Source: a virus. Taken from it: DNA of 64,000 nucleotides. A program made the translations under genes and the position numbers. Shown here piece after piece: positions 5,991 through 52,206 of this stretch. The notes under the pieces were generated by a model. The model was given only the letters and a program-made list of their open reading frames with translations, was not told the DNA's origin and did not search any database. The DNA lies in IMG/VR virus record IMGVR_UViG_3300028654_000384, positions 151,858-215,857 of that record. One strand, given 5' to 3'. The stretch's first letter is position 1. Every line of letters starts with the position of its first letter.

Positions 5991-6208
5991 GTCGGCACCC
6001 GATGCAGGTACACGTGGCTACACCACAGTAGCTGATCATCACCGGTGAGGACGAGTGCCAGTTGCCATTTTTTTGATGTCCTGATCACAGCGATGATGAG
6101 TGACACGCTATCGGGCTTGTTCAATACGTTAAAGCCACGCATCCTTCCGTCGTCGCAAGTTCTCCACCCGGCGTCGCAGAGGACCAGCTGTCCGGGCACC
6201 AGTTTCAT
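5987..6208 (-). CDS. PGxL/GW family protein
   Basis: 73 residues, MKLVPGQLVL at the start, SLIIAVI strand, and a C-terminal DDQLLWCSHVYL matching the neighbour's L-W form. ATGA overlaps at both ends. Function unknown. Confidence 0.8.
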   Translation of the reverse strand: MKLVPGQLVLCDAGWRTCDDGRMRGFNVLNKPDSVSLIIAVIRTSKKWQLALVLTGDDQLLWCSHVYLHRVPT

Positions 6209-6441
6209 ACCTGCCTCAGGTAGTGTTCACTAGTCCACAACAATCGCCCATCACTAGTGACGACGAGTGTCGGCCGCCAGTTGTTAGAAATGACACCAGC
6301 AGAGGTGCCGATGACGAGGCACAGTTCTTCACGCCAGACGCGGCGAACATAATCGATCAGTGTTTGATTGAACCACAGACCCGCACCTGGGATCAGGAAT
6401 GTCAGTTGACCCGGTTGATAGAGCCAATCGTCACCTGTCAC
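6205..6441 (-). CDS. PGxL/GW family protein
   Basis: 78 residues from the GTG at 6441, which overlaps the upstream stop as GTGA. YQPGQLTFL, LCLVIGTSA and LVVTSDGRLLWTSEHYL are the three family strands. It is similar to the plus-strand member at 5488-5760 (NNWRPTLV against NIWRPTLV), indicating an inversion-duplication across the array edge. Confidence 0.8.
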   Translation of the reverse strand: MTGDDWLYQPGQLTFLIPGAGLWFNQTLIDYVRRVWREELCLVIGTSAGVISNNWRPTLVVTSDGRLLWTSEHYLRQV

Positions 6442-6656
6442 AACAGCCTCCAACGTCCGGGGTGGGCCCACGTCAGGCCCAATCGACCGTCGATCAACAA
6501 CAACGTCGGGTGACCGTGATTTGATCGACGACCGACGACCAGCGCGACCCGGCCGGCTTCGATGACGGTGCCGTTCTGATCAGATGAACTGACCATGATG
6601 GGTGCCGTGATCTCAATCAGTGCTCCTGGGACGGGCGCGGTGGGTGACGGCATCAT
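6438..6656 (-). CDS. PGxL/GW family protein
   Basis: 72 residues; PVPGALIEI, VALVVGRRS, then LLLIDGRLGLTWAHPGRW. ATG at 6656 overlaps the upstream stop. It belongs to the same PG-(Q/A)-L, DGRL branch as its neighbours. Function unknown. Confidence 0.8.
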   Translation of the reverse strand: MMPSPTAPVPGALIEITAPIMVSSSDQNGTVIEAGRVALVVGRRSNHGHPTLLLIDGRLGLTWAHPGRWRLL

Positions 6657-6898
6657 ACTCCCACTATGGAGTTACGATTGATCTCACACAGTTTGCCGCG
6701 CGCAAGGCAAATCACGTAATCAGCATCAACCTTAGAATGGGTGATGACGAAGAAACACTCGCCAGGCCAAGCAGTGCTGGGCATTTCGTTGACGAAAGCG
6801 ATGATGTCTGTTGTCATCCACCACAATGTGCAGGCGGCGTGCGTCGGCATGGTCAAGGTGCCCGGAGAGAACTTCACGTCGGCGGGTGACAACACCAT
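6653..6898 (-). CDS. PGxL/GW family protein, divergent
   Basis: 81 residues; FSPGTLTMP, CFFVITHS and YVICLARGKLCEI, the last matching VICIARGRLCEV of the next upstream gene. The annotated ATG is only 2 bases past the -10 of the promoter at 6901-6930, so transcription may begin within it and the adjacent GTG (6895) may be the used start. Confidence 0.75.
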   Translation of the reverse strand: MVLSPADVKFSPGTLTMPTHAACTLWWMTTDIIAFVNEMPSTAWPGECFFVITHSKVDADYVICLARGKLCEINRNSIVGV

Positions 6899-6900
6899 TA

Positions 6901-6930
6901 ATCATACCCCTGGTGTCGGTCAGTGTTCAA
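6901..6930 (-). promoter_or_regulatory. Promoter of the 6898 chain
   Basis: TTGAAC-18-TATGAT on the minus strand, closer to the general sigma-70 consensus than the GTGCAA sites. Confidence 0.65.
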
Positions 6931-6941
6931 GCGTTGAACAT

Positions 6942-7142
6942 TCACAGCGACTTTAACCAGGCATATGCAACCTCGCACAGTCGCCCCCGTGCGATACAAA
7001 TGACGTACTTGGGGGAATAGCCGGCACCAATGATGAGGCAAGGCTCGCCGTGAACGGCGTTGTTGGGGTCACAGTCGCCCAACCACCACAACAGACAAGG
7101 CAGTTGGGTGATAACGGCCAAGGTGCCAGGTTGCAGCTTCAC
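6942..7142 (-). CDS. PGxL/GW family protein
   Basis: 66 residues from a GTG that overlaps the upstream TGA (GTGA). LQPGTLAV, PCLIIGAG and YVICIARGRLCEVAYAWL are conserved with the following gene, so the two are recent duplicates. Last gene of the chain that begins at 8864. Function unknown. Confidence 0.8.
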   Translation of the reverse strand: MKLQPGTLAVITQLPCLLWWLGDCDPNNAVHGEPCLIIGAGYSPKYVICIARGRLCEVAYAWLKSL

Positions 7143-7366
7143 CTGACTTCCTCCCCTTCGACGGCGTGTCGGTGACACCAGCCCAGCCGTCCGGTCGCCA
7201 GCACCCGGACGCGGAATTCAATCGGGTTCACTTCAACGATGAAGACAAGGCTTCCGGGGCGCAAAGAACCAAGGTTCACGCCGTCCGCGCCGTCGGCGCA
7301 CGTCCACAGCGCCCATGCGCCTCCTTCGAGGTCACCCACCTTCCTGAGTTGACCGGGGGCGATCAC
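7139..7366 (-). CDS. PGxL/GW family protein with two PG motifs
   Basis: 75 residues from a coupled GTG. Near the start IAPGQLRKV, later LRPGSLVFIVEV and VRVLATGRLGWCHRHAV. Two PG-x-L segments in one short chain suggest fusion or strand duplication. Function unknown. Confidence 0.75.
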   Translation of the reverse strand: MIAPGQLRKVGDLEGGAWALWTCADGADGVNLGSLRPGSLVFIVEVNPIEFRVRVLATGRLGWCHRHAVEGEEVR

Positions 7367-7572
7367 CAAAATGCCTCGACGGTCAGCCAACCCAGGCGCC
7401 CTAGGGCAAGAACACAGAAGTAGCCACGGTGCCCGGGGCCCGAGACGATCAAACAGACAGTGCCAGCAGGGAGCCTGGTGCTCCAGTTGGGGCCTGCGTT
7501 TCGCAGTTCATTCATGTCGAGCGCCCACACGGGCCTCTCGGGCCGGGTGATGGTGCCCGGTGATATCATCAT
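7363..7572 (-). CDS. PGxL/GW family protein
   Basis: 69 residues from the ATG overlapping the upstream stop: ISPGTITR, VCLIVSGPG and YFCVLALGRLGWLTVEAF. The long in-frame extension upstream is Arg/His-rich shadow sequence and is excluded. Function unknown. Confidence 0.8.
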   Translation of the reverse strand: MMISPGTITRPERPVWALDMNELRNAGPNWSTRLPAGTVCLIVSGPGHRGYFCVLALGRLGWLTVEAFW

Positions 7573-8199: not shown

Positions 8200-8417
8200 G
8201 ACAGCACCCACTTGTTGAGCCAACCAAAGCAACCTGCAGCGAGGACGAAGACGTAACCACAGTCGCGGTCGACCATGCCCACGATGAGCACCGCACCGTT
8301 GAGTGTAACGTAGCCCCGCTTATTGGTGCCGACTGTGGCCAGTATGGGATCGGTGTCCCACAGCACAGCACCGATGTTGGCGAAGAACAGGGTGCCGGGC
8401 TCGAACCCAGACATCAC
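8196..8417 (-). CDS. PGxL/GW family protein
   Basis: 73 residues (GTG start overlapping the upstream stop; an ATG follows at once): FEPGTLFFA, VLIVGMVD, YVFVLAAGCFGWLNKWVL. A canonical member. Function unknown. Confidence 0.8.
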   Translation of the reverse strand: MMSGFEPGTLFFANIGAVLWDTDPILATVGTNKRGYVTLNGAVLIVGMVDRDCGYVFVLAAGCFGWLNKWVLS

Positions 8418-8659
8418 AACACCTCCAAGTGGAAGGTGTTGAGCCAACCCAACTGACCCTCACCGGTGACGATGAAGGCAAATACCTGCCCGTCTAGTCT
8501 CCTCACGACCTGGGCCGCGGCGAGGGCGACGGTGTTACCAGCAGCGCGCAGGTTCGCGTAGTCAGCACTAGTGATTGAATCAGGCGACGGCACCCGTGGC
8601 CACAACAGGCCACCGAGGGGTGGGACGAGGTGACCGGGTTGAAGTTTGACGGAAGACAA
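8414..8659 (-). CDS. PGxL/GW family protein
   Basis: 81 residues: KLQPGHLVP near the start, FAFIVTGEGQLGWLNTFHL at the end. No ATG or GTG lies near the expected start, so a TTG at 8659, 7 bases after the upstream stop, is proposed. Function unknown. Confidence 0.7.
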   Translation of the reverse strand: MSSVKLQPGHLVPPLGGLLWPRVPSPDSITSADYANLRAAGNTVALAAAQVVRRLDGQVFAFIVTGEGQLGWLNTFHLEVL

Positions 8660-11519: not shown

Positions 11520-12152
11520 ATGTCAGACACGCAGAACGACCCGACCAGCACGTCCGAGATCGACAAGGCCATCAACGCTGCCAAGGCACGCAAGGCCGCG
11601 CGCGGTGAGAAGGTCATCTCTGCCGACGGCACCCCCAAGGCCGCGAAGGCGCCCCGGGCACCCCGCGCTCCCAAGGCCACCGACGAGGCCAAGCTCGCCC
11701 TCAAGGCAGCGAAGGCAGCCACCGCCGCCGCCAAACGTGCAGCGCGCCAGGCAAAGAAAGCGGCCGCAGCGCCCAAGGCGACGGCCCACATGAAGAAGGT
11801 CGAGAAGGCCGCCGAGCGCCTAGGCACCCTGTCCGACGCCGCTTCCCTCATCTTCAACGAGGCGACGGCGAGCCTGTCGGCCCTCGAGCTGGGCATCCTC
11901 GCCGGCCACCTGCAGCACTTCAACCGCGTCAAGGCGACGTCCCGCGCCGCGGCGACCCGCCCGTCGGTGGGCCAGACTGTCACCATCGTGTCGGGCGACC
12001 CCCGCTACGTGGGCCGCACGGGCACCGTCACCAAGTCGCAGCGCATCCGCATGTACGTGCAGCTCGACGGCGTCAAGAAACCCGTCTACCTGTTCACCAG
12101 CGACGCAGTCCTCGCGAATGACGAAGCGACCGAACAGTCCGCATCGGCGTGA
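11520..12152 (+). CDS. Ala/Lys-rich histone-like protein with a C-terminal KOW-type segment
   Basis: 210 residues. Residues about 35-100 are a low-complexity Ala/Lys/Pro tract (AKAPRAPRAPKA, AAKRAARQAKKAAAAPKA) like the tails of bacterial histone H1-like proteins. The C-terminus has VGQTVTIVSGDPRYVGRTG, a KOW/SH3-type turn, and KPVYLFTSDAVL. DNA or RNA binding is likely; condensation of phage DNA or a translational role would fit. ATG chosen by GGAA spacing; an in-frame ATG at 11418 lies upstream of the expected transcription start. Confidence 0.7.
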   Translation: MSDTQNDPTSTSEIDKAINAAKARKAARGEKVISADGTPKAAKAPRAPRAPKATDEAKLALKAAKAATAAAKRAARQAKKAAAAPKATAHMKKVEKAAERLGTLSDAASLIFNEATASLSALELGILAGHLQHFNRVKATSRAAATRPSVGQTVTIVSGDPRYVGRTGTVTKSQRIRMYVQLDGVKKPVYLFTSDAVLANDEATEQSASA

Positions 12153-13920: not shown

Positions 13921-14372
13921 TGCCGTGCCTTGATGCCGGCATGGCCATTGAAGTGAGTGTCGGGCCCAGGAACTGGGTGACCCTTTTGGGTCATGTCGGT
14001 TCCCGACACTGGCCCTCACCGCGCACCCTGATCCTGTTGCTCACCCTTCTCCAGGTCTCTGCTTGCGGCGGCACCCTGGTTGGGCCCGTCTTCGAGTATC
14101 AGGTGGGGGCACAGCCCCCACCGCCTGCACACCCCACTTCCGGCTTTGCTGCTTCAACGTGGTCGCCGACGAACAGTAACCAGGCCATCGTCTATGCTCA
14201 AGCGGCGACCCCTGCCGCGGTACCGCCCATCCACAAGCGCCACACCACCGTCGCCTCGGTGCAGTGGCCGTGGATCGCCGTCGCCGCCACCGTCCTCGTC
14301 GGCGGCACCCTGGCGGGCCTGGCGGCGTCAGGTTGTTTCGATGGCAACTGTGGCAAGACACTGGGCTGGTGA
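13920..14372 (+). CDS. Lipoprotein with C-terminal membrane segment
   Basis: 150 residues if started at the TGATG overlap. A hydrophobic run TLILLLTLLQVSAC ends in a lipobox (VSAC-GG) near residue 51, unusually far in, so a later start is possible. The mature part is Pro/Thr-rich and ends with a second hydrophobic helix (IAVAATVLVGGTLAGLAASG). The 5' coding region contains a 9-bp inverted repeat (13956-13964 with 14002-14010) around TGACCC-TTTT-GGGTCA, which may control translation. Confidence 0.6.
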   Translation: MPCLDAGMAIEVSVGPRNWVTLLGHVGSRHWPSPRTLILLLTLLQVSACGGTLVGPVFEYQVGAQPPPPAHPTSGFAASTWSPTNSNQAIVYAQAATPAAVPPIHKRHTTVASVQWPWIAVAATVLVGGTLAGLAASGCFDGNCGKTLGW

Positions 14373-14401
14373 CGTGCCCAGCACGTCACGCACCCGGTGC
14401 A

Positions 14402-14425
14402 CCCAAGTCCCTTCGGGACGTTGGG
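14402..14425. repeat. Hairpin element CCCAA-GTCCC-TTC-GGGAC-G-TTGGG
   Basis: Two stacked stems. The same architecture with compensatory changes (GTCGC/GCGAC) occurs at 16403-16426, each time preceded by GCA and followed by a G-G-purine context. Conserved pairing with changed bases supports a selected RNA structure. Confidence 0.6.
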
Positions 14426-14448
14426 CTGGTGATTGTCATGAAGGGACG

Positions 14449-14482
14449 AAATTGCTTCAGTCCTCACGGACTTCAGGACGTG
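14449..14482. repeat. 34-nt repeat (inverted copy at 47924-47957)
   Basis: The reverse complement occurs without mismatch at 47924-47957; both copies abut a 23-bp palindrome. It contains an AGTCC-TCAC-GGACT hairpin, so it may act as a terminator or an insulating element upstream of the promoter. Confidence 0.75.
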
Positions 14483-14504
14483 AATTACACCCCGAGTATA
14501 ATTC
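14482..14504. repeat. Dispersed 23-bp palindrome, copy 3
   Basis: GAATTACACC then CCGAGTATAATTC, ending 8 bases before the -35 at 14513; centre 56 bp from the ATG at 14549. Confidence 0.8.
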
Positions 14505-14512
14505 GACGGGGA

Positions 14513-14542
14513 GTGCAAGCGCACTGACTTCTGGCTTACAGT
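14513..14542 (+). promoter_or_regulatory. Leaderless-type promoter
   Basis: GTGCAA-18-TACAGT-TAGATC-ATG, with palindrome copy 3 just upstream. Confidence 0.85.
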
Positions 14543-14548
14543 TAGATC

Positions 14549-15292
14549 ATGAGGACGATAGGAATCATGACGATGGCCTGCCTGGTGGGAGCAACGCTCC
14601 CACTGGTTGCCTGTGGCGGCGCGCCCCCGGCAGCGCCCCCCGAGCTGACGAGTGCCTGCGCCGGCCATACCTGCAGTGGGGGTTCCACCCCCACCAGCCC
14701 CACCGACCCTTCACTTGCCCCCACCGTGTCGCCCCCAAGCGCTTCGTCGGTGCCGGCGAAGGAATCCCCTTCGCCTGAGGCGGGGATTTTACCTGATGCC
14801 GCCACGGTGCCAGTGGGGGCAACGCCCCCACCAGCCCCACCATCGACCCCGCTTCCCGACGCTGCCAGTGAGGGTTCAACCCTCACCGCCGTCGATATCG
14901 ATGCAGGTACCATGGTCAGTGTCCCCGAAGTCGATGCCGGGCCCGATGCGCCGGTTATGGCCGTGCTTCAAACCGACGCCGCGCCACTGCCCGATCCCTG
15001 TGCTGGTGCGAGTGGGGGTTCCACCCCCACCATGGTTCCTCGTGCCTATCCGGGCGGCGGTGGCATCGGTTGTGCGCGGCTCGCGGGTACCGGCACCTCG
15101 GTGCCTTGCCAGTGCTTCGTTACTGCTGGTGAGGGCGGCACCCTCACTGCCACCGCGCTGGCCCTTACCGTCTGCGGGCCGACGGGCTGCAACTGCATCG
15201 CCAACGACGGCGAGGGCCCGGCTGACCGCCCGTACTGCATCGGGCCCAAGTGCACCGCTGACCAGATCGCCAACCAGACGTGCTGGTATTGA
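14549..15292 (+). CDS. Pro/Ala/Ser-rich lipoprotein with Cys-rich C-terminus
   Basis: 247 residues. Signal peptide with lipobox LVAC-GG near residue 22, a long low-complexity region (about 25-160) and a C-terminal domain with CNCIAN and TCWY and about ten Cys. DAGTM and DAGPDA segments resemble lipoproteins of myxobacteria. At least six 19-nt hairpins of the form GTGRGRG-N5-CYCYCAC are embedded in the coding sequence. Its own leaderless promoter drives it. Probably outer-membrane anchored and surface exposed; role unknown. Confidence 0.75.
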   Translation: MRTIGIMTMACLVGATLPLVACGGAPPAAPPELTSACAGHTCSGGSTPTSPTDPSLAPTVSPPSASSVPAKESPSPEAGILPDAATVPVGATPPPAPPSTPLPDAASEGSTLTAVDIDAGTMVSVPEVDAGPDAPVMAVLQTDAAPLPDPCAGASGGSTPTMVPRAYPGGGGIGCARLAGTGTSVPCQCFVTAGEGGTLTATALALTVCGPTGCNCIANDGEGPADRPYCIGPKCTADQIANQTCWY

Positions 15293-16904: not shown

Positions 16905-17137
16905 TGGCATCTTATGTCGTCGTCCCACTGAAGCTGACCAAGCCTACGTCGGGTCACACCTTCGATCGCCTCGACGTTGCCGCCTCGCTGGCGGCCATGC
17001 TGCAGCCCGGCGACCGCGTCGTCAGCGTCTACCCCGTCCGTGGCCTCGTCCGCAATCAGTGGGACCCCGCGGCCACCTACTTCGAACTTGAGGCCCTCGT
17101 CGAACGAAAGGAACCCGCATCCCATGAAGAAACGTAG
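16904..17137 (+). CDS. Hypothetical protein, 77 residues
   Basis: SYVVVPLKLTKP, LDVAASLAAMLQPGDRVVSVY and YFELEALVERKE: beta-alpha-beta, with a LQPGDRVVSV strand resembling the PGxL signature in a different place. Coupled by TGATG to the gene before. Function unknown. Confidence 0.7.
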   Translation: MASYVVVPLKLTKPTSGHTFDRLDVAASLAAMLQPGDRVVSVYPVRGLVRNQWDPAATYFELEALVERKEPASHEET

Positions 17138-17417
17138 CAAGAAGGAACGCCGCGACCTGTCACCCATCCACCCGCCCATGCCCGTCGAACAGGCCGAGAC
17201 CTATGCCCGGGCCCTGCAGGCACAGAAGGACCTCCGCGCGCAGCTGGTCAAGGCCACCCCGAAAGGGGCCGACGCGCCCTGCATCGGCCTGGCCGACACG
17301 TGCACCGGCACGTATCAGCTGTTGGTCTGGTGCAATGCGGGTCGACCCGCGGCGTTGCCCGCCACCTTCGAGGGTTTTGCAGTCGACTTTAGGGGTCACC
17401 TGCCCCGCGCACTGTGA
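17124..17417 (+). CDS. Hypothetical protein with basic N-terminus, 97 residues
   Basis: KKRSKKERRD at residues 2-11, then a helix (EQAETYARALQAQKDLRAQL) and a Cys-containing segment (DAPCIGLADTCTGTYQLLVW). ATG with AAAGGAA upstream, overlapping the previous gene by 14 bases. Function unknown. Confidence 0.65.
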   Translation: MKKRSKKERRDLSPIHPPMPVEQAETYARALQAQKDLRAQLVKATPKGADAPCIGLADTCTGTYQLLVWCNAGRPAALPATFEGFAVDFRGHLPRAL

Positions 17418-45445: not shown

Positions 45446-45520
45446 CGAACCGTAGCTCAGCATGGTTAGAGCATCGCACTGATATTGCGAGGGTCAGGGG
45501 TTCGACTCCCTTCGGTTCGA
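45446..45520 (+). tRNA. tRNA-Ile (GAT)
   Basis: Acceptor CGAACCG/CGGTTCG, anticodon stem TCGCA/TGCGA with loop CTGATAT, T loop TTCGACT. No CCA encoded. Confidence 0.9.
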
Positions 45521-45545
45521 CGACGAAATCACACAAGAAGAAATC

Positions 45546-45623
45546 ATGAATACCCAACCCGCACAGAAAAAGCTCGTAAAGCAGTGGCAGCGTTATGCTG
45601 TTGCTGCCAATCAAGATACGTGA
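45546..45623 (+). CDS. Possible 25-residue leader peptide between tRNAs
   Basis: ATG AAT ACC ... TGA encodes MNTQPAQKKLVKQWQRYAVA and five more residues. A GTG frame overlaps its stop (GTGA, 45620) and is itself followed by an ATGA-coupled frame reaching into tRNA-Tyr. Basic and short; weak support. Confidence 0.3.
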   Translation: MNTQPAQKKLVKQWQRYAVAANQDT

Positions 45624-45751
45624 GCGCGGAGCCTCTCAGCTTCGCAAACGCTCCGAAGCTGGTGAGATGAAGGTGAAGAAAGAGCCGACACCGAACCAGC
45701 CGAGGAGGAAAGGAACTTCCCTCGGCAATCGTCGTTTCGACACAACACACT

Positions 45752-45832
45752 GGTGTGCTATACCGCTATGGAGACGGGGCAGTCTGTAACACTGTCGCTT
45801 AAGCTCGCAGGGTTCGATTCCCTGGCGCACCA
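45752..45832 (+). tRNA. tRNA-Tyr (GTA)
   Basis: Acceptor GGTGTGC/GCGCACC, anticodon stem GCAGT/ACTGT with loop CTGTAAC, extended variable arm as expected for bacterial tRNA-Tyr, T loop TTCGATT. Confidence 0.85.
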
Positions 45833-45882
45833 CGACTGCGATGACGAAGGTCATCACGATCATTGACAATCTGCGTTCCTAT

Positions 45883-45956
45883 TGCTCGATAGCCAAGTTG
45901 GTACGGCAGCGCACTGTTAATGCGCCCATGCGCAGGTTCGAATCCTGCTCGAGCAG
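45883..45956 (+). tRNA. tRNA-Asn (GTT)
   Basis: Acceptor TGCTCGA/TCGAGCA, anticodon stem GCGCA/TGCGC with loop CTGTTAA, T loop TTCGAAT. Confidence 0.9.
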
Positions 45957-45957
45957 C

Positions 45958-46028
45958 TCGGGTATCATACAGTGGTAGTATGACTGACTCTGACTCAGTT
46001 CACGGACGTTCGAATCGTTCTACCCGAA
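45958..46028 (+). tRNA. tRNA-Gln (CTG)
   Basis: Acceptor TCGGGTA/TACCCGA, anticodon stem ACTGA/TCAGT with loop CTCTGAC, T loop TTCGAAT. Confidence 0.88.
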
Positions 46029-46029
46029 C

Positions 46030-46102
46030 GGGCTCGTAACTCAATTGGTAGAGTACTCGGTTCTTACCCGAGAAGTTGAAGGTTCGACTCCTTTCGGGCT
46101 CA
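46030..46102 (+). tRNA. tRNA-Lys (CTT)
   Basis: Acceptor GGGCTCG/CGGGCTC with wobble pairs, anticodon stem CTCGG/CCGAG with loop TTCTTAC, T loop TTCGACT. Confidence 0.88.
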
Positions 46103-46103
46103 C

Positions 46104-46178
46104 CTCCTCGTAGTTCAGCGGAATTAGAACGTCGGCCTGCGAAGCCGAAGGCCGTGGGTTCGAGTCCCACCGAGGAGA
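46104..46178 (+). tRNA. tRNA-Arg (GCG)
   Basis: Acceptor CTCCTCG/CGAGGAG, anticodon stem TCGGC/GCCGA with loop CTGCGAA, T loop TTCGAGT. Confidence 0.9.
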
Positions 46179-46179
46179 C

Positions 46180-46252
46180 GTGGCACCAGTAACTCAGTGG
46201 GAGCAATCTCATACCCTTCCCTTGACGAAGGTGTAGGTGAACAAGTGCCACT
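46180..46252 (+). tRNA. tRNA-like gene, degenerate
   Basis: A perfect 7-bp acceptor (GTGGCAC/GTGCCAC) and 73-nt length, with stem CCTTC/GAAGG around CCTTGAC (anticodon TTG if real, but C33). No T arm is recognisable. Decayed tRNA or tRNA-like RNA. Confidence 0.45.
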
Positions 46253-46275
46253 GCATGTTGTATGATTCAACTCAC

Positions 46276-46345
46276 GGAGGAGTAGCTCAGTGTAGAGCAG
46301 TGCCTGTACCGGCACAGGTCGTAGGTTAAACTCCTGCCTCCTCCA
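46276..46345 (+). tRNA. tRNA, possibly Val (TAC), six-base anticodon loop
   Basis: Acceptor GGAGGAG/CTCCTCC and D arm are good. The perfect stem GTGCC/GGCAC encloses only six bases (TGTACC). T arm GTAGG/CCTGC with loop TTAAACT. The anticodon is uncertain. Confidence 0.6.
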
Positions 46346-46351
46346 CGATAC

Positions 46352-46422
46352 GGGAGAGTAGCTCAGAGAAAGAGCAGTGCCCTTGCTGGCGCAGGTCGGT
46401 GGTTTAATTCCATCCTCTCCCA
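46352..46422 (+). tRNA. tRNA, possibly Ala (TGC), six-base anticodon loop
   Basis: Acceptor GGGAGAG/CTCTCCC, anticodon stem GTGCC/GGCGC around six bases (CTTGCT), T loop TTTAATT. Sister of the preceding gene (similar D and variable arms), with the same short loop. Confidence 0.6.
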
Positions 46423-46443
46423 CCGTCACTTCACGTGACGCAT

Positions 46444-46516
46444 GCCCTCGTAGCTCAGTTTGCAGAGCGCCGTCGATTTTAGACGGAGGTCGGTGGTCCG
46501 ATTCCATCCGAGGGCT
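46444..46516 (+). tRNA. tRNA, possibly Lys (TTT), atypical loop
   Basis: Acceptor GCCCTCG/CGAGGGC, anticodon stem CCGTC/GACGG with loop GATTTTA: anticodon TTT by position, but A at position 33. CCA follows the discriminator base in the DNA. Confidence 0.6.
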
Positions 46517-46531
46517 CCACATTCAACACAC

Positions 46532-46603
46532 GGATTCAGAACTCGAGTGGCAGAGTTCCCGGCTTTTACCCGGGTAGTGACGGTTCGAGCCCGTCTGGAT
46601 CCA
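46532..46603 (+). tRNA. tRNA-Lys (TTT)
   Basis: Acceptor GGATTCA/TGGATCC, anticodon stem CCCGG/CCGGG with loop CTTTTAC, T loop TTCGAGC. Confidence 0.88.
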
Positions 46604-46604
46604 C

Positions 46605-46675
46605 GCAGACGAGTGACGCGGTTCACTGAAGCTTCATACGCTTCAAACGCCATGGTTCGACTCCGTGGGTCTGCA
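46605..46675 (+). tRNA. tRNA-Met (CAT)
   Basis: Acceptor GCAGACG/GGTCTGC (last pair G-G), anticodon stem GAAGC/GCTTC with loop TTCATAC, T loop TTCGACT. One base after the preceding tRNA. A tRNA-Ile with modified C34 cannot be excluded. Confidence 0.8.
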
Positions 46676-46683
46676 ACCACTTT

Positions 46684-46756
46684 CACCCCGTAGATCAGCG
46701 GCAAGATCGCTTGCTCGACACGCAAGAGACCGTGGGTTCGAGTCCCACCGGGGTGA
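46684..46756 (+). tRNA. tRNA-Val (GAC), C33
   Basis: Acceptor CACCCCG/CGGGGTG, anticodon stem CTTGC/GCAAG with loop TCGACAC; position 33 is C rather than T. T loop TTCGAGT. Confidence 0.8.
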
Positions 46757-46886
46757 CGACGCGAATGAGCGTCAGTGTAAGTAACTAACAACAGTACACA
46801 TTGATATGGGTAGGTGAAAGCCGTCTCGGCCGGGACGATGAGTAACCACAGTACCTAAGCACTTCGGTGCTGGTGCAACCAAACAT
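46757..46886. other. Structured spacer in the tRNA array
   Basis: 130 nt without a canonical tRNA. It contains the hairpin AGCAC-TTCG-GTGCT near 46859-46872 and a CGTC-TCGGCCG-GGACG element near 46820-46836. Possibly a remnant tRNA or a small RNA. Confidence 0.4.
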
Positions 46887-46963
46887 GGGGCCAACAGGCG
46901 AGTCGCGCAGCAAAGCCAACATGGAAGCTGAGCGCACGGCGGGTTCGACTCCCGCTGGCTCCA
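46887..46963 (+). tRNA. tRNA-like gene, anticodon unresolved
   Basis: Acceptor GGGGCCA/TGGCTCC and T arm GCGGG/CCCGC with TTCGACT are canonical; the middle forms GCGCAGC/GCTGAGCGC rather than standard D and anticodon arms. Confidence 0.55.
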
Positions 46964-47031
46964 CGAGTGACACCTACTGGATATTGCTAGCATCAAAAGT
47001 GGTGTGACATCGGGGAGAGACCCGACAATTT

Positions 47032-47102
47032 GGGGCGTTGATCTACCGCGATGATTCCTGACCTGCAATCAGGCCGACCGGGTTGGATTCCCGGACGCTC
47101 CA
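47032..47102 (+). tRNA. tRNA, probably Ala (TGC), C33
   Basis: Acceptor GGGGCGT/ACGCTCC, anticodon stem CCTGA/TCAGG with loop CCTGCAA; by position the anticodon is TGC with C33. T loop TTGGATT. If the loop is read one base later, the anticodon would be GCA (Cys). Confidence 0.7.
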
Positions 47103-47115
47103 CTCGTTGTGAATT

Positions 47116-47186
47116 GGTGATGTGCGCCACGGGAGGCGACTTCCCTGTCTAGGAAGCGTACGCGGGTTCGAATCCCGTCATCATCG
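47116..47186 (+). tRNA. tRNA-Asp (GTC)
   Basis: Acceptor GGTGATG/CATCATC, anticodon stem CTTCC/GGAAG with loop CTGTCTA, T loop TTCGAAT. Confidence 0.88.
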
Positions 47187-47187
47187 C

Positions 47188-47259
47188 AGGGGTATCATTC
47201 AGCGGCTAGGATGTCCGCCTCCAAAACGGATCACCTCGGTTCGAGTCCGAGTGCCCCTG
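47188..47259 (+). tRNA. tRNA-Trp (CCA)
   Basis: Acceptor AGGGGTA/TGCCCCT, loop CTCCAAA, T arm CTCGG/CCGAG with TTCGAGT. A 3' CCA is encoded at 47260-47262. Confidence 0.88.
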
Positions 47260-47272
47260 CCACTTTTCTCAC

Positions 47273-47340
47273 GTCACTGCTTCGGCGGCCGAAGTGAACC
47301 ATGGGCACATCGCGCGCACGTTCGAGTCGTGCCGGTGACA
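47273..47340 (+). tRNA. tRNA-like gene, anticodon unresolved
   Basis: Acceptor GTCACTG/CGGTGAC, D stem TCGG/CCGA and T arm GCACG/CGTGC are good, but only about 20 nt remain for the anticodon and variable regions and no 5-bp anticodon stem forms. Confidence 0.5.
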
Positions 47341-47369
47341 CACATAAATAGGAACGCAGGTTATCACAC

Positions 47370-47443
47370 TGGCCACTCGTCTAAAGGCAGGACCCCGCGC
47401 TTTGAACGCGGATGAAATGTGGGTTCGACTCCTACGTGGCCAA
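47370..47443 (+). tRNA. tRNA-Gln (TTG)
   Basis: Acceptor TGGCCAC/GTGGCCA, anticodon stem CCGCG/CGCGG with loop CTTTGAA, T loop TTCGACT. Confidence 0.9.
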
Positions 47444-47446
47444 CCA

Positions 47447-50986: not shown

Positions 50987-51370
50987 GTGCAGAAGAGCCA
51001 GAAGAATTCTCGGTTCACAGCATCTAGTGGTGTACGTACGCGGCAGCAAGTCATTTCCCAACCCGAGGTCGTCAGCGCAGACGTCCTTGGTACCATGCTC
51101 GATGAAGATCTCATCGTGCGCCTTCGAGTGCTCGATGAAGCGTGTCGGACGGCGACGTCGTCGGGCATTGACACTCGACCGTGGGAAGAGGAGATTGCCT
51201 ACGTCAAGCGTGAGCAGCACCTCCGGCGCGCGCGCCGTGAACAGCACTTGATCTACGCTCGCAAGATCGAGCAGGAGTTCAACGATTCCGAGCGCGGGTT
51301 GCCTGCGGGTGACTTTGACAACTCGGCATTCGTCTACGCGGCATCGGGCGGTCGTCCGAGGTGGAACTGA
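50987..51370 (+). CDS. Hypothetical protein upstream of the sigma factor
   Basis: 127 residues from a GTG (the frame is open to a GTG at 50894, which adds an unlikely hydrophobic stretch). VISQPEVVSADVLGTMLDED, charged helices (YVKREQHLRRARREQHLIYA) and an aromatic end. Stop overlaps the sigma start (TGATG), so it may be functionally tied to it, for example as a sigma-binding protein; inference only. Confidence 0.6.
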   Translation: MQKSQKNSRFTASSGVRTRQQVISQPEVVSADVLGTMLDEDLIVRLRVLDEACRTATSSGIDTRPWEEEIAYVKREQHLRRARREQHLIYARKIEQEFNDSERGLPAGDFDNSAFVYAASGGRPRWN

Positions 51371-52206
51371 TGACGATCGAAAATCGTACTGCGCACAACG
51401 TCGTCGGCACTTACCTCGACAACCTACAACACTTTTCACAGCTCAAACACCCGGAGCTCGTGGAGCTGTTCAAGTCCTACGAAGTCGGTTGCACCCGCGA
51501 TGAGACGGGTGAGGTCACCGATCGTACTCCCGAGGCCTTCAAGCTGCGCAACAAGATCTTGGAGTGCAACCTGCGACTGGTGGTGTCGATCGCCAAGCAG
51601 TACCGAGGTCACAACCTACCGATCGAAGACCTCATTCAAGAAGGCAACATCGGCCTGATGAAGGCAGTCGATCGGTTCAAGTGGGAGAAGGGCTTTCGCT
51701 TCTCGACCTACGCCACGTGGTGGATCAAGCAGGCCATTGGTCAGCACGTCCTCAAGCGCAAGCGGATGATTCGCTTGCCCGCTCACGCGGCGACGGTGCA
51801 GCGCAAGATGTTGCAGGCGGCCGAAGAGTACCGTGAAAGCAACAATTGCGAGCCCACGACTGAGGAGCTGATGGGCCTGACCGGCGCCAGCGCGACGGTG
51901 ATGAAGGCGACGATTCACTCGGGTCGTGGCACCATTTCGTTGCAGCAACCCCTGTCGTCGAGCGGCGAAGGCGACACTCTCGAGGACAAGGTCGAAGACG
52001 ATCGCCCGGGCTCGAATCCATTCGAGAACGTGGCCGAGAAGCAATTGCTCGAGATCACCAAGATGGTGCTCGGTGAGCTGTCGGCCAAGGAGGCGGCGAT
52101 CCTTCGCCTGCGCTTCGGCCTCGTCGAGGACGCGACTGATGACCAGTCGTATCCCATCACCGAGGAAGAGGCACGCCAAGTCATGGCGGGGAAAGGCCTG
52201 ACATGA
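51370..52206 (+). CDS. Sigma-70-family factor lacking region 4.2
   Basis: 278 residues. A region 1.2-like start (GTYLDNLQHFSQLKHPELVE), then region 2: NLRLVVSIAKQYRG, DLIQEGNIGLMKAVDRF, FSTYATWWIKQAIGQ. Gln of the 2.4 helix (Q437 in E. coli RpoD) is kept; T440 is Gly. Region 3.0 RLPAHAATV keeps the His used for extended -10 contacts. The 3.2 finger (ISLQQPLSSSGEGDTLEDK) and 4.1 (LGELSAKEAAILRLRFGL) are present, but the chain ends at ITEEEARQVMAGKGLT, before the -35-binding helix-turn-helix. It likely directs host RNA polymerase to the promoters described here. Confidence 0.88.
   Translation: MTIENRTAHNVVGTYLDNLQHFSQLKHPELVELFKSYEVGCTRDETGEVTDRTPEAFKLRNKILECNLRLVVSIAKQYRGHNLPIEDLIQEGNIGLMKAVDRFKWEKGFRFSTYATWWIKQAIGQHVLKRKRMIRLPAHAATVQRKMLQAAEEYRESNNCEPTTEELMGLTGASATVMKATIHSGRGTISLQQPLSSSGEGDTLEDKVEDDRPGSNPFENVAEKQLLEITKMVLGELSAKEAAILRLRFGLVEDATDDQSYPITEEEARQVMAGKGLT

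Follow-up and report, generated by a model that had tools for sequence, protein, structure and literature searches.

The purpose of phage tRNA arrays is a long-standing question. Changes in the loops of phage tRNAs are predicted to confer resistance to nucleases (PMC10264068), and a tRNA-like RNA, YrlA, has been proposed to inhibit an anticodon nuclease by competition (PMC7790460). The cell-wall tRNA of Staphylococcus aureus is in turn marked by altered D and T loops (PMC8007984). Here we describe an array of an uncultured jumbo phage which includes about 12 ordinary tRNAs along with several tRNA-like RNAs. The array, delimited by ARAGORN, Rfam, a cloverleaf scan and synteny, spans positions 45446..47446 of a 64,000-nucleotide stretch (hereafter the window), the terminal part of a 215,857-base contig (IMG/VR record IMGVR_UViG_3300028654_000384, positions 151,858 to 215,857). 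Features located in the window lie on its plus strand, and single array members are named by their first base; other contigs are cited by their L numbers. The odd members, grouped in families F1, F2 and F3, are very probably conserved tRNA-like RNAs which do not decode. The best explanation overall, to which we assign a probability of about 0.5, is that they are conserved families of RNAs which have abandoned decoding, and which may titrate host proteins able to bind tRNAs.

ARAGORN called 15 genes in the array, 47032 not being among them, and 13 genes scored above the cut-off (29 bits) of the Rfam tRNA model RF00005. In an independent cloverleaf scan array genes scored 44-63, while the reverse strand did not exceed 43, shuffles did not exceed 39, and a control region gave none. 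An earlier note on this DNA, made by reading the letters, had counted 12 or 13 normal-looking genes, in keeping with the ordinary tRNAs recognized here. Outside the array no further tRNA was detected on the 215,857-base contig. A sister contig (IMGVR 3300031344_000004) is 99.99% identical across 17.7 kb and derives from the same virus, and an assembly error is therefore unlikely. Its first base corresponds exactly to 46276, plausibly by chance. The sister contig runs beyond the end of the window's contig, and holds a second array with 26 tRNA calls. With the two arrays combined, each of the 20 amino acids has a tRNA, 47032 being the sole one for alanine, and F1 genes are thus not needed for decoding.

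Relatives were searched by using as probes the DNA polymerase III alpha protein and the phage sigma factor (51361..52206, located by protein search); the neighbouring protein DNMK, used in the same way, retrieved none. Syntenic tRNA arrays are carried by about 12 relatives, which form a clade of large uncultured phages. Duplicates (L116 of L115, L125 of L124, L114 of the window) were left out of the counts. Most arrays share the gene order Ile-GAU, Tyr, Asn, Lys-CUU, odd slot, Lys-UUU, Met, Val, Ala, Asp, Trp, Gln, and in most relatives the odd slot is filled by F1-type genes.

The F1 group of the window adjoins an ordinary tRNA-Lys(UUU) (46532..46604), and includes the genes at 46276..46345, 46352..46422 and 46444..46519, all four being called by ARAGORN, Rfam and the cloverleaf scan, and the F1 genes being assigned by family comparison as well. 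The earlier note had remarked on six-base anticodon loops closed by perfect stems in the first two genes, and this can be read directly in their anticodon arms (46276, GTGCC-tgtacc-GGCAC, RNA loop UGUACC; 46352, GTGCC-cttgct-GGCGC, RNA loop CUUGCU; stems of 5 bp). The third gene, which has A33 as had been reported, belongs to a subgroup featuring U73 and an encoded CCA, and its loop is GAUUUUA. RF00005 scores are 52.9 and 51.2 bits for 46276 and 46352, and 45.7 for 46444. Over 21 F1 genes, 97.3% of the stem cells are paired, against 71.5% in shuffles, a fraction biased upward since the set was picked partly by stem score; pairing falls to 51-53% when the partner is slid by one column. Double, compensatory changes are found at 16 of 21 stem pairs, including 5/5 in the anticodon stem. 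The D arm GCTC...GAGC is almost invariant, yet G18G19 are missing, as in the D loops of the window genes (AGTGTA, AGAGAAA and AGTTTGCA), which in this respect depart from canonical tRNAs. When only stems and linkers were compared, 31 of 36 genes lacking GG had as nearest neighbour a GG-less gene of another virus (expected 6.8, permutation maximum 19). Neither this test nor the double changes depend on the stem-score filter alone.

The anticodon loop behaves differently from the body. At matched body identity (0.81 and 0.82), loop identity is 0.51 in F1 and 0.86 in ordinary tRNAs, and loops of equal length are found in 33% and 99% of the comparisons, respectively. U33 is present in 4/28 F1 genes, of which 16/28 have 7-nt loops, against 140/147 ordinary tRNAs. 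Loops range from 6 to 9 nt (tgtacc, cttgct, gatttta, catttag, cgtaatgg, tatcca, taaataa, cgttgag), and orthologous genes sharing the same body carry different anticodons. F1 genes thus make up a tRNA-like family passed on by descent, in which the stems are intact and covary, and the loop evolves far faster than the body; the evidence for this is strong. The derivation of F1 from a degenerated tRNA-Lys was rejected, as the nearest ordinary tRNAs by mean distance are those for Ala, Ile and Arg. An exact search for the D-arm word retrieved GG-less genes in additional phage contigs, the loop being of five or six bases in some of these genes, and 33 matches in a collection of bacterial genomes, fewer of which are cloverleaves. 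A separate observation concerns a metagenome-assembled genome of Aliifodinibius (L242 ~7735, minus strand), which hosts a tRNA-Gly(UCC)-like gene lacking GG and having U73, recalling cell-wall tRNA-Gly. A swap of the 19-56 pair in 46276, 46352 and 47032 (UA, AU and CG, respectively) is suggestive, depending on how short D loops are numbered.

F1 genes might be real decoders, their loops having been altered to evade anticodon nucleases, or to allow readthrough or frameshifting. Rfam takes them as tRNAs, loop changes of this sort have been described in phage tRNAs (PMC10264068), and UUU recurs among F1 loops. The general absence of U33 and G18G19, loops of 6 to 9 nt, the discordant anticodons of orthologues and the availability in this virus of tRNAs for 20 amino acids make this hypothesis improbable. 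Stop-reading anticodons (CUA, UUA, UCA) are called in array genes at L118 7319-7394, L124 4333-4408 and L166 2899-2975, the former two also lacking the usual G18G19.

F2 is represented in the window by the RNA at 46887..46963, identified by covariance model and alignment, in which an alanine-type acceptor (G3:U70, A73) and a T arm are set on a hairpin with loop AAAGCCAACAUGGAA, and no anticodon arm is present. The general architecture includes the 7-bp acceptor, GGC, a 7-bp hairpin, the conserved loop AAAGCCGACAATGGA and a canonical T arm. Copies of this clade have a 1x1 mismatch in the hairpin, and GCC in the loop could pair to the upstream GGC as a pseudoknot. Searching for alanine-type acceptors plus T arms revealed F2 in L117, L121 and L122, then in L115 and, in a more divergent form, in L118. 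A covariance model built from L115, L117 and L122 alone, thus excluding the window, gave 73.2 bits (E ~1e-14) to 46887 and 72.9 to the L121 copy, whereas true tRNA-Ala genes score at most ~32. The Rfam tRNA search of the array did not report 46887. The folding of all odd genes as standard tRNAs by covariance models, which the earlier note had contemplated, therefore holds for F1, accepted by Rfam, but not for 46887, which reaches 73 bits with its own model, the Rfam one being silent.

By BLAST, F2 was found in 82 Streptomyces phages, and those examined with the F2 model score 68-72 bits. Cultured phages with F2 include Lululemon (PQ184791, ~86069-86145) and NootNoot (MF347636, ~84341-84417). 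In all three phages viewed, F2 resides in an unannotated gap, with tRNA-Val on one side and tRNA-Leu on the other. In an alignment of eight F2 sequences, 98.7% of the cells are paired, double changes occur in 12/19 pairs, and 7/7 hairpin pairs covary; these counts were made on a model-fitted alignment, which leans toward the model, but an alignment by hand of five sequences agrees (94/95 cells paired). G3:U70 is invariant in the eight sequences, while acceptor pairs 4 to 7 vary, and the core of the loop is identical across unrelated phages. The evidence is strong that 46887 is a member of a new RNA family, and not a decayed tRNA; decay from tRNA-Ala(GGC) was specifically rejected, given the conserved homologues and a score with its own model far above that of tRNA-Ala. 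F2 was also considered as a reduced tmRNA, and this was discarded, as SmpB was not found and the Streptomyces phage Lululemon, which carries F2, has a separate tmRNA. The same phage encodes an RNA ligase, a polynucleotide kinase and a Ro-like protein. The clade was searched for SmpB and a phage-encoded alanyl-tRNA synthetase, and neither was found.

According to a different hypothesis, F1 or F2 RNAs may be aminoacylated, and either serve as amino-acid donors in reactions other than translation, like staphylococcal cell-wall tRNA-Gly, or tie up a synthetase. All 8 F2 sequences bear G3:U70, the pair that marks alanine identity, and one F1 subgroup has U73, G1:C72 and C2:G71, which are identity elements of bacterial tRNA-Gly. 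Wall tRNAs marked by altered D and T loops provide a parallel. In turn, a phage-encoded amino-acyl transferase was not identified, the anticodon loops of F1 lack conservation, and the hypothesis seems quite improbable. Even more so is the view that the odd members are array pseudogenes undergoing decay. In its favour, genes are gained and lost in arrays, the element at 47273 has a degraded look, and 47032 has a weakened D arm. Yet, covarying stems, families fixed in position, and a loop core identical in unrelated phages contradict decay for F1 and F2. Of the fates put forward in the earlier note, decay falls for these two families, and is conceivable for 47032 and perhaps for 47273; editing or splicing finds no support. 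The notion of tRNA-like RNAs with other roles is instead borne out by positional conservation and compensatory changes for 46276, 46352, 46444 and 46887, and less firmly for 46180.

The latter represents F3 (46180..46251; homologue comparison and motif counts), which features an outer helix (GTGGCAC/GTGCCAC), the motif AGTAAC/GGTGAA and two hairpins. It had been suggested that 46180, 46887 and 47273 keep acceptor stems, as they do in the form of 7-bp acceptor-like stems, and lack a proper anticodon or T arm; a missing T arm is confirmed for 46180 only, as the other two have normal T arms. In the 46180 homologue of L118 the stem sequences differ, but mostly still pair, and both carry GGTGTAGGTGAACA. 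A possible second F3 element, found by motif search (AGTAAC...GGTGAA, 46780..46828), has no clear outer helix. AGTAAC and GGTGAA words are repeated in array spacers, with 32 copies of AGTAAC in 42.7 kb of array sequence and 17 in 187 kb outside (Poisson p 6e-19). Perfect outer helices close several F3 copies (e.g. L124 4075-4128 and L025 14752-14811), though many copies have none, and on helices alone the difference between copies in arrays and outside is unconvincing. Some copies include an anticodon-like hairpin with U33, and AGUA opposite GAA may form a bulged-G (loop E) motif. As a family, F3 is the least certain of the three, and the compensatory evidence is weak.

F3 elements are relevant to the idea that the odd RNAs serve maturation of the array, as punctuation or protein-binding sites for folding, processing and protecting a long transcript, with no decoy action. 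F3 elements and an inverted repeat recur in spacers, and adjoin F1 genes. The repeat, found by repeat search, is of 13 bp (left arm CTGCGTTCCTATT, 45871..45883; right arm AATAGGAACGCAG, 47347..47359) and encloses most of the array; its equivalents in L117 and L118 are shorter (CTGCGTTCC/GGAACGCAG), and lie in the same places with altered flanks. Punctuation, however, requires an acceptor and a T arm only, while compensatory changes involve 5/5 pairs of the F1 anticodon stem and 7/7 of the F2 hairpin, and the majority of the neighbouring tRNAs lack such elements. This role is hence rather unlikely.

The existence of these RNAs, their synteny and their inheritance across divergent viruses are documented, as is the compensation in their stems, strongly for F1 and F2 and weakly for F3. 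In F1 and F2 what is selected is the shape of tRNA, not the match to codons, and this fits RNAs bound by proteins which recognize tRNAs. F1 retains acceptor, D, anticodon and T stems and has very probably given up decoding; F2 retains only the alanine-type acceptor/T-arm half, mounted on a different hairpin; in F3, hairpins, some of which are anticodon-like, are capped by a helix and the AGUA/GAA-type motif rather than by an acceptor. The RNAs may be transcribed with the array, then excised, and as tRNA mimics engage host proteins that bind tRNAs, the likeliest targets being defence nucleases that cleave them, with neighbouring ordinary tRNAs meanwhile replenishing translation. Titration of anticodon nucleases by decoys, also among the options of the earlier note, is tentatively placed above a scaffold role, decoding with unusual loops, charging for non-ribosomal uses and decay as the likeliest mechanism, by analogy, because phage tRNAs have been linked to such nucleases, and YrlA has been proposed as an inhibitor.

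Several points weigh against this explanation, in addition to the way the F1 set was picked. The proposed decoys have no known nuclease target in the hosts of these phages. Decoys might be expected to mimic the anticodon loops of the host, and F1 loops look arbitrary, save for the recurrent UUU. A search of the clade for T4 Rnl1-type RNA ligases found none, but was uninformative, as its controls gave no match.

Other members of the array are closer to canonical tRNAs. The C33 that had been spotted in 46684 and 47032 is present in both. The former (46684..46756; ARAGORN, Rfam, cloverleaf scan) is a tRNA-Val(GAC), standard but for this residue (loop tcgacac), and C33 occurs in 6/147 ordinary tRNAs of the clade. 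The latter (47032..47102; cloverleaf scan and acceptor/T-arm search) is a tRNA-Ala(UGC) with loop cctgcaa and a 3-bp D stem, which retains G3:U70 and has an apparent C19/G56 instead of G19/C56; decay is possible, and is indistinguishable from specialisation. The tRNA-like element at 47273..47340, assigned by slot comparison, has a poor anticodon stem, and shares CGGCGG and the loop ACCATGG with same-slot elements of L117 and L118. Loop palindromes (CCATGG or CTCATGAG) in this slot (47273-47340; L117 7920-7993; L121 7332-7402) could form loop-loop dimers. The likeness of GTAGGTGAAC to the 3' end of small-subunit rRNA is presumably fortuitous.

A further conserved structured RNA is found 3' of tRNA-Trp (L117 7821-7918, L118 8288-8384, L121 7231-7327, L122 7969-8062, L124 6656-6758). 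It consists of an outer stem, TTCGAGGAAAG, a variable stem, ACACAGAATCC, GCGGCTGCTA and a T arm, faintly resembles RNase P RNA words, and gave no Rfam match (L117, L118) and no match by BLAST in phages. A tRNA-Ile with anticodon UAU, usually absent from bacteria, is located at L025 19712-19787 and L128 13191-13265. In another tRNA, to which ARAGORN assigns the anticodon uuca, the anticodon loop has 8 nt (ATTTCAAC). This tRNA resides in this virus at L027 ~8366-8438 (minus strand), and is called twice in a 369-kb relative (L030 1140-1213 and 1219-1293). Genes beside or within the second array (L025) encode a PTH2 peptidyl-tRNA hydrolase (16927-17403), a NADAR domain (14208-14762), a small nucleotidyltransferase-like protein (11713-12063) and a metallopeptidase/VWA protein (6004-7446).

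If part of the array is made of non-decoding mimics, gene counts and arguments on codon supply need revising, and RNA decoys become a testable form of counter-defence. Since F2 resides in annotation gaps of cultured Streptomyces phages, its transcript, charging and partners are open to study now, and phage genes labelled as pseudo-tRNAs or as having an undetermined anticodon may conceal functional RNAs. A broader and more doubtful possibility is that arrays are mixed arsenals, in which replacement tRNAs are flanked by structurally selected mimics of tRNA parts disarming host defences targeting tRNAs. F1 would provide the body without the anticodon, F2 the acceptor half without the anticodon, F3 hairpins without the acceptor. 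No description of such an RNA-based anti-defence class was found in the literature searched.

Known systems resemble these RNAs in part. F2 shares with tmRNA (RF00023) the alanine acceptor, G3:U70 and a canonical T arm, and the L117 copy matches the model weakly (34.2 bits, below the threshold of 47; no match in the window). In contrast to tmRNA, F2 is 77 nt long, has a different hairpin, and lacks a tag reading frame or stop. F3 recalls YrlA and bacterial Y RNAs (RF02553), in which an end-pairing helix and a conserved internal motif surround tRNA-like hairpins, and a Ro-like protein is present in F2-bearing Streptomyces phages. The identification of F3 with YrlA is unsupported, as the only match (25.6 bits, cut-off 69) lies over the F1 pair, and none was seen in L117 and L118; a TROVE (Ro/Rsr) protein was not found in 11 clade contigs, which are possibly incomplete. 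F1 is similar to staphylococcal cell-wall tRNA-Gly (PMC8007984) in that its D and T loops are altered while the rest of the body is intact, but the wall tRNA retains a glycine anticodon, whereas F1 loops are hypervariable. The arrays of C1 mycobacteriophages (PMC10264068) are similarly large, include altered anticodon loops, and a link to anticodon nucleases has been proposed for them. Their tRNAs, however, are treated as working decoders, whereas F1 RNAs mostly lack U33 and G18G19 and have loops of variable length, and an anticodon arm is absent from F2.

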